NCBI GenBank assembly: GCA_023473595.1
Contig: JAMCYV010000027.1
Span: 1-39,508, forward strand
DNA length: 39,508 nucleotides
Source: Patescibacteria group bacterium
GTDB taxonomy: Bacteria; Patescibacteriota; CPR2; UBA1875; JAMCYV01
Direction of reading: 5' to 3'
Under the pieces are notes generated by a model. It did no database searches. It saw only the letters and a program-made list of their open reading frames with translations, and was not told where the DNA came from. The position numbers and the translations under genes are program-made. Shown here one piece after another: positions 177 through 22,559 of this stretch; position 1 is the stretch's first letter; every line of letters starts with the position of its first letter.

Positions 177-833
177 TTATTTGAGTTCAACTGCAGCGCC
201 GATCTCTTCGAATTTCTTCTTAATCTCTTCAGCCTCTGCTTTTGGAACGTCTTTCTTAAGCTCTTTTGGAGCGCCCTCTACTAAATCTTTGGCTTCTTTA
301 AGGCCGAGTTCGGTAACTTCTCTTACGACTTTAATAGCCCCGATCTTATTAGCGCCTGCCGAACTAAGGACAACAGTGTAGTTAGCTTTTTCTTCAGCGG
401 CTTCAGCACCGCCAGCAGCTGGGCCGGCAACTCCGCCTGCAACAGCTACCGGAGCAACAGCACTAACTCCGAACCTTTCTTCTAGAGATTTAACCAGTTC
501 TGCGAGTTCCAAAGCTGAAAGACCTTCAATAGTCTTAATAAGGTCTTTGAATTTTCCGGTCGGTTCCGGTTTTTCAGCTCTTTCAGCCTCTGGCTGAGGT
601 TTTTCCTCGGCCTTCTCTTCTTCAGCTGGTTTTTCTTCCGGTTTAACCTCCTCGGCTTTTTCAGCCGCTTCCCCGGCCTTTTTCTCTGCAACTTCAGCTT
701 TCTCTTCGGCCTCTTCTGTTTTTGTTTCTTCAGCTGCTTCCTTTACTTCTTCTGCAGCCTCTTTTACTTCCTCGGCCGCTTCTTTTACTTCTTCTGCAGC
801 TTTGGTAATTTCTTTTTGTGGTTCGTCCGCCAT
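177..833 (-). CDS. rplL: Ribosomal protein L7/L12 with long N-terminal Ala/Glu/Lys repeat extension
   Basis: C-terminal part [40 protein letters not shown]...[72 protein letters not shown]. Start at MADEPQ has a GGGAGAA SD; the ORF-track start at 896 is upstream of it. Confidence 0.95.
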
Positions 834-919
834 ATTTTCTCCCTTTACCCTGCATAGCTTTAGCGAAGTAGGGTTGCCCGCTTTAATAGCTATCACTTTG
901 GGTTTAATATTAATTATTA

Positions 920-1444
920 TTAACTAACCTGATCCTTATATTGCGATAAAACATTGACAAGTCCCCTTAAATTTCCCTGAAGGACAGATGCTAAGCCCCT
1001 TAGAGGCGAAGCTAGAGAACCGACAATCTTTGCATACATCTCTTCTCGGCTTGGCATAAGAGCAAGAGATTTAATCTCATCCAAACTGATCGATTTGCCA
1101 TTTAAAACTCCGCCGAAAAGCTCCAAACTCTCGTGATCTTTTGAAAACTGGTAAGTGATTTTTGCCGGCTCTACCTCGTCTTCATATCCGAAGGCAGCAG
1201 CAACCGGCCTATCTTTAATCTGGTCTAAATCAATGTCAAGTTTTGAATCTTTGACGGCGGAGTTTTAAATGGCAAATCGGAGGACTTTGAATTCGATTCC
1301 TTTTTCTCTTAATTTTTTTCGAATTTCTGAAATTTCTTCAACATTAAGGCCTCGGTAATCGGTAAAAACCACCGCTTTTGAGTCCTCAAGTTTTTTTGCA
1401 AACTCTTTGATTAATTCTTCTTTTTTCTCTCTTGTTATCGCCAT
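920..1444 (-). pseudogene. rplJ: Ribosomal protein L10, interrupted by an in-frame TAA at 1265-1267
   Basis: MAITREKKEELIKEFAKKLEDSKAVVFTDYRGLNVEEISEIRKKLREKGIEFKVL-[RFAI*NSA][111 protein letters not shown]. Same frame on both sides of the stop. Confidence 0.85.
1091..1279. repeat. Perfect 25-bp inverted repeat (1091-1115 / 1255-1279) inside rplJ
   Basis: cgatttgccatttaaaactccgccg on + at 1091-1115 and on - at 1279-1255. Confidence 0.95.
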
Positions 1445-6036: not shown

Positions 6037-6478
6037 GAAAAACCTCTTTTTTATCAGTGCCGCCAAAGCCTCCTCTGCTCTCATCTTTCATTTTATCTAC
6101 TTCTAACCACTGAGCCTTATCGACTCTTACAAACACTCCCTGGGCTATTTTTTCACCCCTTGAGATCTTAACCTCTTCATCGGTGAAATTAAAAACCTGG
6201 ATAAGGACCTCATCTTCCTCCCCACAATAATCGATATCGATAATTCCTACACCATGCGGAAGTGAGAGCCCTTTTTTTCTGGGGGTACTGCTTCTTGAAG
6301 CTACCATCAGCATATACCCTTCTGGAGTCTCTATAATAAGGTTGCCCGGAATCAGTTTAATTTCTTTAGGTTTTATGACTGTATCTTCCCTGGCTAAAAA
6401 ATCAAAACCAACTGAACCGTTTGTTTCGTAAATCGGAAGAGGCAAATTTTTATCAATTCTTTTAATTTTTACTTGCAT
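6029..6478 (-). CDS. dut: dUTP diphosphatase
   Basis: GSVGFDFLARED, ASRSSTPRKKGLSLPHGVGIIDIDYCGEEDEVLIQVFNFTDEEVKISRGEKIAQGVFV, RGGFGGTDK. Confidence 0.92.
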   Translation of the reverse strand: MQVKIKRIDKNLPLPIYETNGSVGFDFLAREDTVIKPKEIKLIPGNLIIETPEGYMLMVASRSSTPRKKGLSLPHGVGIIDIDYCGEEDEVLIQVFNFTDEEVKISRGEKIAQGVFVRVDKAQWLEVDKMKDESRGGFGGTDKKEVFHA

Positions 6479-7842: not shown

Positions 7843-9780
7843 TCAATGCTTTTGCTCAAAGTACCATTTCAAAATCTCTTTGGCCACAGGCGCTGCCGTA
7901 ACATCGCCTCCCCCACCCTGTTCAACTAAAACGACAACAGCAATTTCCGGATCACTGTAAGGCGCAAAAGCTTCAAACCAAGCATGAGTCTGCTTTACGT
8001 CATTGCTGTACTGGGCGGTTCCCGTTTTGGCTGCCACTTCTACCGGCAAATCGTTTAAAGATCGAGCCGAGCCATTGACAACTGTTTCCCTCAACCCTCT
8101 CCTTACAATATCCAAATTTTCTCGGCTAATAAAATCTTTATTTAAAATTTCAGAGGCAATATCTTTTATTATTCCGCCTGTTCCGTCGATAATCTTTGAA
8201 ACTAATTTTGGTTTATACAATGTTCCGCCGTTAGCAATCGCCGAAGCTGCCGTTACCATTTGCAAAGGCGTAACTAAAAGATCGCCCTGGCCGATTGACA
8301 TATGATAGGTATCTCCAAGATACCAAGGCTCTCCTTTTTCTCTTTCTTTCCAATTCGGATCTGGAATTTTTCCCTCTGCTTCGCCGGGGACATCAATACC
8401 TGTAATTTTATTAAAACCAAATTTTACTAGGTACTCCTTAATCTTTTCCGGACCGAGGCCTTTAATATTTTGATAACCCCCGCCTATGGCATAGAAGAAA
8501 GTATTCACTGATTCAGCAATCGCTTTTATAACGTTTGTTACGCCATGGCCGCCGGCTTTCCAGTCGGGAAATTCCCAGTCGCCGACTTTTATCCCGCCAG
8601 TACTTAAGACCGTAGAATTCTCGGTGATATTCCCTTCTTGCAAGGCGCCAGCTGCAATAAAGGGCTTAATAATAGATCCAGAGGGGTAAATACCGGAAAC
8701 TGCTCTAAAAAGAAGAGGATTGTTCTTGTCCTCCAAGAGATTTTTGTAATCCGCTTCTGAAATACCTTTAGCAAAAAGATTATTATCATATGAAGGTAAA
8801 TTTACAATCCCTAAAATCTCTCCATTCTTTGGATTCATGGCAATCGCTACTCCTTTTGTTGCATTTGCCTTGTCCATACCTGCCCTTAAAGCTTCAGCCA
8901 TCTTTTTCTGAAGATTAAAATCAATCGATAAGAGAAGATTGCTGCCGTTCTCAGGATTTACATCTCCCAATGCCTTTATCACCTTTCCGGTAGCATCAAT
9001 CTCTTCCCTTGTCCGCCCGTTAACACCCTTTAAATAACTTTCATACGAGTATTCCAAGCCAGTCTTTCCGATATAATCCGTCATCGCATAGTTTCTCTTA
9101 TCAATTGACTTATACTCTTCTTCAGAGATTCTTCCGGTATATCCCAAAACATGGGAAAGAAGACCGTTGTCAAAATATTCTCTGATCGGATTTATCTGGA
9201 CTGTAACGCCTTTTTGCCCGGATAACCGAGACTCCAAAAGAATAGCTGTATCTCTTCCCACGCTGCTCTTAATAACTAAGGGAAGCTGGTATTTAATCCC
9301 TCCTTTTTCATTAATCTTTTGCTTAATCTCTTCAACTGGCATCCCTAAAGTGTCAGATAAAGCTTTATAAACTTCTTCTCTCTCTTTCTCTTCTTTCGAA
9401 AGGTCAGAAGGTACAATAAAGACTTCATAATTGGGAACATTTTTAACTAAAGCAACACCATTTTTATCATAAATGATACCTCTTGGAGCAATAATTAATT
9501 GAGATCTAACCCTATTCCCCTCGGCAGTTTCCAAGCTGGCGCCGCCAGTCCGAATCTGCAGAAAAAAGAGCTGGGCAATCATAACAAAAAAAAGAAAGAT
9601 CGCAAGGACCCTTATAAATAAAAAAGGCTTAAGGTTTTTTTCATCCTCCATTTGTGGAACCTCGGCATCGGCCGGCAAGATATGATGAATCCAGGTCTCT
9701 GATTGGCTCGCCTTTTTCTCTATAGAGATTTTTTTATTCTCGAGTGAAAAAAAGTTAGTAAAAATTCTTTTTTTCTTCAT
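7843..9780 (-). CDS. mrdA: Penicillin-binding protein 2 (elongasome transpeptidase)
   Basis: N-terminal TM segment; YPSGSIIKPFIAAGAL (SxxK), VAAKTGTAQYSN (KTG), directly after mreD. Confidence 0.92.
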   Translation of the reverse strand: MKKKRIFTNFFSLENKKISIEKKASQSETWIHHILPADAEVPQMEDEKNLKPFLFIRVLAIFLFFVMIAQLFFLQIRTGGASLETAEGNRVRSQLIIAPRGIIYDKNGVALVKNVPNYEVFIVPSDLSKEEKEREEVYKALSDTLGMPVEEIKQKINEKGGIKYQLPLVIKSSVGRDTAILLESRLSGQKGVTVQINPIREYFDNGLLSHVLGYTGRISEEEYKSIDKRNYAMTDYIGKTGLEYSYESYLKGVNGRTREEIDATGKVIKALGDVNPENGSNLLLSIDFNLQKKMAEALRAGMDKANATKGVAIAMNPKNGEILGIVNLPSYDNNLFAKGISEADYKNLLEDKNNPLLFRAVSGIYPSGSIIKPFIAAGALQEGNITENSTVLSTGGIKVGDWEFPDWKAGGHGVTNVIKAIAESVNTFFYAIGGGYQNIKGLGPEKIKEYLVKFGFNKITGIDVPGEAEGKIPDPNWKEREKGEPWYLGDTYHMSIGQGDLLVTPLQMVTAASAIANGGTLYKPKLVSKIIDGTGGIIKDIASEILNKDFISRENLDIVRRGLRETVVNGSARSLNDLPVEVAAKTGTAQYSNDVKQTHAWFEAFAPYSDPEIAVVVLVEQGGGGDVTAAPVAKEILKWYFEQKH

Positions 9781-18252: not shown

Positions 18253-19366
18253 AGAGCTTTCGCCCCTTCTGAAAAAATCCCCGGCTTATTACTTCAATCC
18301 CTTTTTCTGCAGTAATCTCTCCGGCTATCTGGGCTTCGATGTTGAAGCTCTTGACAATTTCAATCACTTTTTCAGGCTCGGGGGTAACAACCAGCATTCC
18401 TTGTCCCATATTCCAAGTTTTATAAGCTTCTTCGTCGGGCACACCGCCTAGTTTCTGCAAATGAAGCATTAGTTCGCACGGTTTAAAGAGATTATCAAGT
18501 CTTGCTCCAAGCCCTGAAGGTTTCAAAACTCTCCCTAATTTCCCGGGAATCCCACCGCCTGTTATATGAGCAACTCCATGAATCTCTGCTTTTGGCTCAT
18601 CTAAAAAGCCACCGTTCATCTGGCAAATCGCCTTGGAATAAATCTTTGACGGTTCAAGGACTAATTCGGCTAGGTTTTTGCCGTTAAATTCTTTTTTATG
18701 CCAATTATCGCTATAATTGTCTTTTAAGATCTTACGCACTAAAGACAAACCGTTAGATCTAAATCCCTTTTCCTTTAAAGCGACTATTTGATCACCAACT
18801 TTTATCTCTTTTCCAGTAAAAAGCCTCTCTTTTTTGGCAAACCAAAGGAGTCCGGCACACCAGTTGTAATTAAAAGCACCGAATCCTGAAACTCTGGCGC
18901 CGAGTTCGGCCATTTCGCCGTTTATAACGGCTACCCCAGCTTCCTTAGCCGCGTTGATATAACCAAAAGCCAACTGCTTTATTAATTCAATATGCGATTT
19001 ATCTCCTGATTCCAAACTATTTATATCCAAAACCGAACCCAAAACGGCCGGTTCCCCGCCTCTTATTACTGCATCATCGCAAACCATCGCAAAAAGATCG
19101 TAAGCTACCGTATTGTGTTTTTCCAGCCGCTCTGCAATCTCAACTTTTGTTCCGACGCCGTCAAATCCCAAGCACATGAGCGAACCTTCTGGAAGTTTGG
19201 AAACATCGATGACTCTGACTCCCGAAAAATCATCAAAAGGGGAGGCTACTTCTCCGATTTTACCCTTCCTGTTCTCCCAAGTTTTCTTAGCCGCTTCATA
19301 TAAAACTTTTGAAGCATCATTGCCAAGTTCGATATTTACCCCTGAATCTTTATAACTAACCGCCAT
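18251..19366 (-). CDS. purM: Phosphoribosylformylglycinamidine cyclo-ligase (AIR synthetase)
   Basis: SYKDSGVNIELGNDASKVLYEAAKKT...LGFDGVGTKVEIAERL...DLFAMVCDDAVIRGGEP...HGVAHITGGGIPGKLGRVLK. Start trimmed to MAVSYKDSG. Confidence 0.93.
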   Translation of the reverse strand: MAVSYKDSGVNIELGNDASKVLYEAAKKTWENRKGKIGEVASPFDDFSGVRVIDVSKLPEGSLMCLGFDGVGTKVEIAERLEKHNTVAYDLFAMVCDDAVIRGGEPAVLGSVLDINSLESGDKSHIELIKQLAFGYINAAKEAGVAVINGEMAELGARVSGFGAFNYNWCAGLLWFAKKERLFTGKEIKVGDQIVALKEKGFRSNGLSLVRKILKDNYSDNWHKKEFNGKNLAELVLEPSKIYSKAICQMNGGFLDEPKAEIHGVAHITGGGIPGKLGRVLKPSGLGARLDNLFKPCELMLHLQKLGGVPDEEAYKTWNMGQGMLVVTPEPEKVIEIVKSFNIEAQIAGEITAEKGIEVISRGFFQKGRKL

Positions 19367-19500: not shown

Positions 19501-21039
19501 TTAACTTATATTAAACAACTTTTTAAACATTTTTATCTGTTCTTCAGCGTATTTTATCGCTTGGTCTGCTAAAGCATTGGCAAGACCAGTGTTGTTTTCC
19601 GGTTTCATCCCAACTTTGATTTCATCAGCGATTTCTTTAGTAACCTCATTTTTGCCGACTAATTCATCCAAAACTTGCCAGTAATCCTCTAGTCCAACCT
19701 GTTTGCCCATACTGATCTTCTTAATGGCGTCATAAGCGTCGCTTTTGCCTTCTCGCCTTAAAACTGTCTGAATATAAGCTGAAGACATTCCAATATTTTC
19801 AGTCACTTCTTTTTCGATCTGTTCTTTATTCGGCTCATAGAGGTTCAATTCTTCCAAAATCCGATTCATGGCAATTATGCATTTGGCAAAAGGTTCGCCA
19901 ATCGTCCTCATTCTAATAGAACGCCTTAAGTCCCCCTGCCTTTTATATTTAGTTAAATTATGGTATTTATAAAAATCAACATCTGAAAGATACTCCCAAC
20001 CTCCTTCAATTCGCCAAGGATTGGCTTTCTGGGCCATAACTGACGACCCTGATTCACCCGGCTTGGGCTTCTTGACTAAGACTCCTCTTGAACAATACTC
20101 CCAGAAATCTTCGCAAAGTTTTATAAGAACATCATTAACTCTAGTTACGGAATCAAAAAGTTTGTTGTTCCTTATATTAAAGCCATCCTGATCGGCCATT
20201 GAATAATATTTAAGCCCTAGTTTCTTTTCAATAAATTCTCGATTGAATTTTTCCCAATCAAGATCCGGATAAGCGCCGACAATATCGCTGTTATTTCCGA
20301 TCGCTCCCCCAAGTTTTCCTGATGGTAAAGGCTTTTCGGGATTGCCGCTGTAGTCAAAGCAGTAAAAAGAGCTTAGAGCTTGATTTATCCCATCGACAAA
20401 GTTGGCAAAAACCTTTTTAAGTGTCGTGTATTCTGCCCATTGACCATGAGTCTGGCCGGCAAAAACCAGATTCCAATTTTTAGCATTTTCTATCAATTTT
20501 TCCTGAACTTTTATAAGAAGGGGTAGGTAATGATTATCAATAATGTCCCTTAAAACTGTAGTATAAACATTGGAATCGATATCGGCTGAAGTCCTGCCAA
20601 AGTGAATCGCTTCCTCGATTGAAATTCCTTTTTGGGATAACTTGTAATCCATCCATCTTATTACCGCTACCACATCATGATTGGTTTTTTCTTCGATTTT
20701 TTTAATCTGAAGAAAGTTTTTTTCATCAAATTTTTCGTATAGTTCTCGAATTGCCCTTTGTTCCCCTTCATTAAACAGCTTTTCTAGGATTTTTCTCTTC
20801 TTTGTTTTGGATTCAGCGATAAAGTCTGCTAAGGCGATTACATACTCTGCTTCTATCCAAACTCTGCGTCTCACCCATTCAAATTCAGAAGTTAAAAGGT
20901 GAAAATCTTTAACATATTTTTCATACCGCCCTTCAAGAGGAGTAATCGCGAACATTACCCGCCGGTCTTCTTCAGTCACTTTTAGGTCTTCAAGTTCCCC
21001 TTTGGCAAGGCCTATTCTTTCTACAGAACTAACTGCCAT
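19501..21039 (-). CDS. purB: Adenylosuccinate lyase
   Basis: ITPLEGRYEKYVKDFHLLTSEFEWVRRRVWIEAEYV...THGQWAEYTTLKK...PGESGSSVMAQKANPWRIEGG (variant signature). Confidence 0.9.
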   Translation of the reverse strand: MAVSSVERIGLAKGELEDLKVTEEDRRVMFAITPLEGRYEKYVKDFHLLTSEFEWVRRRVWIEAEYVIALADFIAESKTKKRKILEKLFNEGEQRAIRELYEKFDEKNFLQIKKIEEKTNHDVVAVIRWMDYKLSQKGISIEEAIHFGRTSADIDSNVYTTVLRDIIDNHYLPLLIKVQEKLIENAKNWNLVFAGQTHGQWAEYTTLKKVFANFVDGINQALSSFYCFDYSGNPEKPLPSGKLGGAIGNNSDIVGAYPDLDWEKFNREFIEKKLGLKYYSMADQDGFNIRNNKLFDSVTRVNDVLIKLCEDFWEYCSRGVLVKKPKPGESGSSVMAQKANPWRIEGGWEYLSDVDFYKYHNLTKYKRQGDLRRSIRMRTIGEPFAKCIIAMNRILEELNLYEPNKEQIEKEVTENIGMSSAYIQTVLRREGKSDAYDAIKKISMGKQVGLEDYWQVLDELVGKNEVTKEIADEIKVGMKPENNTGLANALADQAIKYAEEQIKMFKKLFNIS

Positions 21040-22559
21040 TAGAAAAGTTCTCCTTTTTGAGCCTTCAAGTCAGCTTCGACTAAAGAATTTATCTTTTTTG
21101 CATTTTCTGCCGATATTTTTCGATGAAATTCTTTGTTTGAATAGCCGAGATATTGAGTAGCAAACTTGGCAACATTTCCGGGACGAAGGATCAGAGCATT
21201 CGGGCTCCCTGGCGGATTAGTAATACAAGAGCTGAATTCCTCTTTTTTCGGAGGGCAGCTTATGACCGGCCAAACAGAATGAAACGAAGCGACCCCGGAA
21301 AGAGCATCCGTCCCTCCGGCAACAGCGATAATAAGGATCGGCTCCAAACTTTTATTATACTTTTGAATTATTTCTACGCATTCTCCAGCCTGCTTATGGG
21401 CCGAACAAATCCGAGCAACTGAAGGAATGCCATATTTATCCAGCTCATCCTTGATAGTTTTCATATGATCTTTGTCGCTATCCGACCCGGCCATAATAAC
21501 TGCAAGTCCTCCTTTTATATAACCGACATTTTTTAGGCCAGATACTAAGCCTTGACTGACATCACCTTCATTACCAAAATCAAATTTTTGCCCTGTCACA
21601 TCCTCATAAAGAGATATATATCTATAAGAAGTTTCAATTACCTGATCTTCTGTTAGACTCGGAATTTTGCCTTCCGCGCCATAACTGAACCCTGATTCGG
21701 TCAAGACATCTCTAACAAATTGTTTTGACTGCTCTTCTATTTTTAATTTTGGTTTCTTTTTCAAAAGCTCGGAAACATTTTGGTATTTGCCCGTTGTCAT
21801 TTCTTTTTTAATATTTTCAAATTTTTTATATTCTTCTTTTGAACAATATCTAGAAGAGTCCGGAGTATTTGCTTCATCAATTAAATAAATATTGCCTTTT
21901 CCATCGGTACCGAATTCATATTTTGTATCAATGAAGATAAATCCCTGTTTTTCGGCTAAATCTGACGCCCTTTTAAAGAGCTCTAAGGCTTTATTTTTAA
22001 CATTTCTAGCCAAATCCTTTCCTAATGCTTTGGTAAGTTTTTCATAGGTCACATTCTCATCGTGCTCTTCGGCTTTAGTCGTTGGAGTAAACAACGGCTC
22101 ATCAAGCTTTTGATATCTTAGAAGCCCTTCCGGAAGTTTAATCCCGCAGATTTCCTGCTCTCCTTTTTCATAAGAAGCTGCCATACTGCCCCAGACATAC
22201 CCCCTTACAACAAATTCAAAACCTAAATTTTTATAATATTTTTGGATTACTACGTTATCATGCGGGCTTTCCTCTAAAGCATTTGGAATTATATCTTCTG
22301 TATTTTTAAAAGCCCATTTGGCAAAGAGGTTGAGAACTTTGCCCTTGTACGGGATAGCTTCGTTTAAAATATGATCGAAGGCAGAAACTCTATCTGAAGC
22401 AACCATAATGATGGGGCTCCCGACTTTTTCGTTTGTAAAATGAACATCCCTTACCTTCCCGCTTTTGTGGTTGCCGAGTTCCGGGATATAACCGCTCGTT
22501 AAAACATTGTTTAAATTTTTCCTAATAATTTCCTTATAGGTTATTTCTTTGTTTGCCAT
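21039..22559 (-). CDS. PurC-PurE fusion: SAICAR synthetase plus AIR carboxylase-like domain
   Basis: N: GKVRDVHFTNEKVGSPIIMVASDRVSAFDHILNEAIPYKGKVLN...LIDEANTPDSSRY; C: LAVIMAGSDSDKDHMKTIKDELDKYGIPSVARICSAHKQAGE...VAGGTDALSGVASFHSVWPVISCPP. Confidence 0.92.
   Translation of the reverse strand: MANKEITYKEIIRKNLNNVLTSGYIPELGNHKSGKVRDVHFTNEKVGSPIIMVASDRVSAFDHILNEAIPYKGKVLNLFAKWAFKNTEDIIPNALEESPHDNVVIQKYYKNLGFEFVVRGYVWGSMAASYEKGEQEICGIKLPEGLLRYQKLDEPLFTPTTKAEEHDENVTYEKLTKALGKDLARNVKNKALELFKRASDLAEKQGFIFIDTKYEFGTDGKGNIYLIDEANTPDSSRYCSKEEYKKFENIKKEMTTGKYQNVSELLKKKPKLKIEEQSKQFVRDVLTESGFSYGAEGKIPSLTEDQVIETSYRYISLYEDVTGQKFDFGNEGDVSQGLVSGLKNVGYIKGGLAVIMAGSDSDKDHMKTIKDELDKYGIPSVARICSAHKQAGECVEIIQKYNKSLEPILIIAVAGGTDALSGVASFHSVWPVISCPPKKEEFSSCITNPPGSPNALILRPGNVAKFATQYLGYSNKEFHRKISAENAKKINSLVEADLKAQKGELF

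Follow-up and report, generated by a model that had tools for sequence, protein, structure and literature searches.

An inverted copy within the ribosomal protein L10 gene of a Patescibacteria draft genome, most likely a local assembly error

Does a small bacterium of the Patescibacteria group live with a broken gene for ribosomal protein L10, or is the sequence of this gene wrong in the draft genome? Taken at face value, the assembly describes an organism in which both L10 and L27 are broken. The window analyzed here, 39,508 nucleotides in length, is the whole of one contig (C13) of a draft genome of 775 kb in 33 contigs that is approximately 85% complete. Our analysis of this locus, of the remainder of the assembly, and of related genomes led to the conclusion that the altered segment in rplJ, referred to below as the patch, is most likely an error of local assembly and not real biology.

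The interrupted L10 gene

The features of the locus were as follows, in window coordinates.

1444..920, minus strand: rplJ, ribosomal protein L10, 175 codons including the final stop, with one in-frame TAA (translation, PF00466, and alignment to relatives)
1255..1279, minus strand: the patch, 25 nt equal to the reverse complement of 1091-1115, in which eight conserved codons (KNTLFKIA-like) have become RFAI*NSA
1265..1267, minus strand: the in-frame TAA, a product of the patch (translation)
1091..1115, minus strand: the donor segment, native, encoding part of LFGGVLNGKS and kept by relatives (for example, LIGGFLNGKS)
177..896, minus strand: rplL (bL12), intact, the downstream partner of rplJ (open reading frame and L7/L12 domains PF16320 and PF00542)

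The first-pass annotation had described 1255-1279 as an exact reverse complement of 1091-1115 that replaced eight L10 codons and introduced a stop without altering length or frame. This description was confirmed: the two arms were 100% complementary over 25 nt with 139 nt between them, the eight codons aligned at equal length with KNTL-like residues in all 35 related L10 sequences covering the site, and the TAA lay in frame at 1267..1265. The alignment also agreed with its expectation of a KNTLLKxA-like segment, as the closest relative read KNTLFKIA at this site, after FKV(I/L). The translation of rplJ was ...FKVLRFAI*NSAVKDSK..., with ordinary L10 sequence resuming past the TAA as had been claimed, and PF00466 matched the gene at 2.7e-22 with the one TAA spanned and its N-terminal part alone at 1.3e-14. 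Nucleotides 1-24 of the patch made up the eight codons, and the 25th was the first base of the next codon, a conserved Val. The GCCG with which the patch ends on its inner side agreed with the conserved Ala-Val and may be of native origin.

Because the relatives read a KNTL-like segment of the same length at 1255-1279, this arm was identified as the intruder, and because the closest relative has a segment (LIGGFLNGK) matching LFGGVLNGK of the donor, 1091-1115 was identified as the native arm. The two arms were the sole inverted pair when 700-1700 was searched, and natural repeats were rejected as the source of the patch since these were the only occurrences of the 25-mer across all 775 kb of the assembly. 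Two genome equivalents of sequence generated by a Markov model of this genome contained one inverted pair of at least 16 nt within 2 kb, so the 25-nt pair in rplJ is far beyond chance.

Outside the patch, synonymous codon changes relative to the closest relative exceeded non-synonymous changes in each flanking segment; the differences were distributed as in a constrained gene, and this part of rplJ was under ordinary purifying constraint. The patch was absent from the relatives' L10 sequences compared, and an internal L10 stop was found in none of 56 other matched genomes. A scan of the genome collection yielded no near-identical L10 from the same species, the best match (80%, C-terminal part only) being from Candidatus Howlettbacteria, which places the organism in the Patescibacteria (CPR). 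A second rplJ copy, one of the options raised in the first-pass annotation, was not present in the genome bin (approximately 85% complete), and the lone copy bears the stop.

Local copies elsewhere in the assembly

We scanned nearly all of the assembly (785 kb) for exact inverted pairs of at least 18 nt with a spacing of 30-1000 nt and found 13. After REP-like or palindromic repeats and one 16S rRNA pair were left out, six non-repetitive pairs remained: those in rplJ (25 nt), rpsI (29 nt), rpmA (18 nt), and on contigs C20 (43 nt), C14 (26 nt), and C26 (19 nt). Thus, besides the rplJ pair, the assembly contained at least five of 18-43 nt, spaced 200-511 nt apart, whereas approximately 943 kb of sequence from ten related genomes contained no inverted pair of at least 18 nt. 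Copies within genes other than rplJ, including one in direct orientation, were as follows.

C4, 6012-6040, donor 6266-6294: rpsI (S9), 29-nt inverted copy, donor in the next (downstream) gene, no stop
C14 (piece starting at 19001), 8707-8724, donor 8996-9013: rpmA (L27), 18-nt inverted copy, donor in a neighbouring gene
C4, 4910-4937 and 4163-4190: rplQ (L17), 28 nt of rpoA in direct orientation, copied over a distance of 747 nt, length kept
C20, 2430-2472 and 2704-2746: inverted pair of 43 nt, with the copied arm close to the 3' end of a conserved gene that lies upstream of one resembling dnaX

In rpsI, ALLEINAELR of the relatives was replaced by ALSNISLGSS with the length kept. The rpmA patch, which likewise kept the length, read FGL*RIKN with an in-frame TAG, compared with FGG and five further residues in the relatives, and this stop-bearing gene was the sole L27 gene found. 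Exact length was therefore kept in all three genes in which the true length could be judged (rplJ, rpsI, and rpmA), and two of the three patches placed a stop (TAA in rplJ, TAG in rpmA) in a normally essential gene. The C20 copy led in frame into the ELEI-like C terminus that is conserved in its gene. The outer-to-outer spans of five internal inverted pairs were 189, 261, 283, 307, and 317 nt. The C26 pair, with a span of 549 nt and a native arm in pilM, was an outlier and may have a different origin.

Copies of neighbouring sequence were also present at the edges of contigs and of gaps. The start of C8 was a 17-nt inverted copy of its own bases 243-259 (span, 259 nt), the end of C1 was a 28-nt inverted copy, and on C33 a 17-nt inverted copy ended exactly where a run of ten Ns (N10 gap) began. 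An inverted arm on C25 also began exactly at an N10 gap; this case is weaker, as the pair is nearly palindromic and each arm resembles native sequence in part. C12 and C17 each ended in 29 nt that repeated, in direct orientation, sequence located 570-670 nt further inward. When 74 contig and N10-gap edges were compared with the sequence within 1 kb, and randomly chosen positions of this genome supplied the expectation, an inverted copy of at least 15 nt was found at 3 of the 74 (expected, 0.015; P approximately 5e-7) and a 29-nt direct copy at 2 (P approximately 1e-3); no copy at 60 control edges reached even 12 nt. Replication errors are blind to the ends of contigs and to gaps, and this distribution therefore indicated a process of assembly or library preparation rather than of replication.

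Two further pairs were set apart from these copies. A 29-nt direct pair on C19 was rejected as a miscopy because it corresponds to a natural double GTPase motif (GRPNVGKST). On C1 (piece from 20001, 6072-6208), an insertion of approximately 130 nt near the 5' end of the 16S rRNA gene had perfectly complementary arms of 19 nt at its borders, an inverted pair that is probably a natural stem.

Origin of the patch

The first-pass annotation had left open whether the patch arose by an inverted template switch or by a read or assembly error. The second of these was strongly favoured by our results, with the first left as its main but unlikely rival, because the patches recur in rpsI, rpmA, and rplQ and at contig and N10-gap edges, and the assemblies of the relatives have neither. 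Judged from the assembled sequence rather than from reads, the rplJ patch is very likely a local error of the draft assembly that is absent from the organism's own sequence; it is a genuine feature of the file and very probably not of the organism. We propose that a short fragment, some hundreds of bases long, would gain a chimeric end, either as a fold-back (snap-back) copy of its other end during library preparation or from a wrongly oriented mate read, and that where coverage was weak or the assembly branched, this end would enter the consensus and displace the true bases. Length and frame would be kept because the copy is laid over the true coordinates, and the in-frame TAA in L10 would be an accident of the copied letters. 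The outer spans of 189-317 nt, with 259 nt at the start of C8, resemble fragment sizes general to short-read sequencing and would suit a short-insert library.

Local assembly errors that lack read support are a recognized problem, and 13 were counted in one CPR genome (Chen et al. 2020, PMC7111523). The errors in short-read metagenomes described there resemble the present ones in being short wrong stretches that break protein-coding genes in otherwise good contigs, in occurring several times per CPR genome, and in the presence of non-unique sequence at scaffold ends. They were defined there by missing read support, whereas ours are defined from sequence alone, and short inverted copies of exact length are not singled out in the passages considered. 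The copying of one fragment end in reverse from the other, by single-strand fold-back and end repair, has been described as a library artefact in historic DNA (Star et al. 2014, PMC3946424), and chimeric inverted reads have been reported to follow sonication (PMC10908179). The interrupted palindromes of Star et al. are likewise inverted pairs one fragment length apart; however, they occur in reads and average 11 bp, whereas the present copies are 17-43 nt and stand in the consensus. The homology at the inner edge that fold-back priming predicts was not consistently visible here, as rplJ (GCCG) fits, rpmA is ambiguous, and rpsI has native-compatible bases at the outer edge. Direct copies exist as well, so fold-back is probably not the whole story, and the choice among fold-back, a misplaced mate, and gap filling is an inference. 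Why the copies are enriched in ribosomal protein genes does not follow directly from this proposal; that conserved k-mers common to co-assembled relatives contribute is only a guess.

A real inverted template-switch mutation, in which the nascent strand jumps to the opposite strand approximately 160 nt away, copies 25 nt backwards, and returns, would leave rplJ broken in the assembled cell or strain and would have to have occurred several more times in the lineage. The patch has the form expected of such an event, in that nearby sequence reappears as its reverse complement between two sharp junctions, and the four-point anatomy known from apes (PMC7954356) likewise consists of one inverted local copy of tens of bases between sharp junctions. 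Among the events reported in apes, however, only 5.5% are length-preserving, with a median copy of 12 nt (PMC7954356), whereas length was kept in 3 of 3 testable patches here and the copies are longer. Replication would also not mark the edges of contigs and gaps or produce copies in direct orientation. Moreover, two patches put stops into the sole copies of the normally essential L10 and L27 genes, the remainder of rplJ is constrained in the ordinary way, and no L10 stop was found in the other 56 matched genomes. We consider a template switch unlikely. A broader form of it, in which the lineage undergoes frequent length-preserving template switching, both inverted and direct, with a concentration in genes for ribosomal proteins, and in which the L10 and L27 stops are tolerated or bypassed, appears very improbable.

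Both forms of rplJ could instead be present in the sampled population, the assembler having picked the broken one. The assembly is a draft of 33 contigs and the genome collection yielded no same-species counterpart, which leaves some room for a minority strain variant, but independent variants in rpsI, rpmA, and rplQ would also be required, each chosen by the assembler, although a consensus would ordinarily represent the more frequent form; we regard this as a highly doubtful account. It is less probable still, indeed barely credible, that the patch is a functional feature, whether because the inverted repeat forms a stem that regulates the rplJ transcript or because the TAA undergoes readthrough or recoding. 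In the mRNA, the arms could form a 25-bp stem with a 139-nt loop, and L10 operons are autoregulated in other bacteria; however, the leader site known for L10 is situated upstream of the gene and not within it, and the KNTL segment conserved among the relatives is lost through the patch. As the stop is TAG in rpmA and TAA in rplJ, no one recoded codon fits. A genome-specific genetic code was rejected, since both codons are ordinary stops elsewhere in the assembly.

A quality check for draft genomes and other features of the window

The signature shared by these probable local assembly errors consists of short exact local copies, mostly inverted, that keep the length and also occur at contig and gap edges; among the genomes compared, it was specific to this assembly. 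Spotting it guards against wrongly concluding that ribosomal proteins have been lost, that codons are recoded, or that mutation is unusual. A simple check of a draft genome would be to count exact inverted pairs of at least 18 nt with a spacing of 100-600 nt and to test contig edges for local copies.

Two other features of the window were observed. In the product of rplL (177-896), the usual L12 domains are preceded by a long N-terminal extension rich in Glu, Ala, and Lys, whose coding sequence contains a 21-nt repeat (EEVKEAA). The open reading frame at 21039-22559 (506 amino acids) resembles a fusion of purC-like and purE-like genes of purine synthesis, as judged by eye from its translation.
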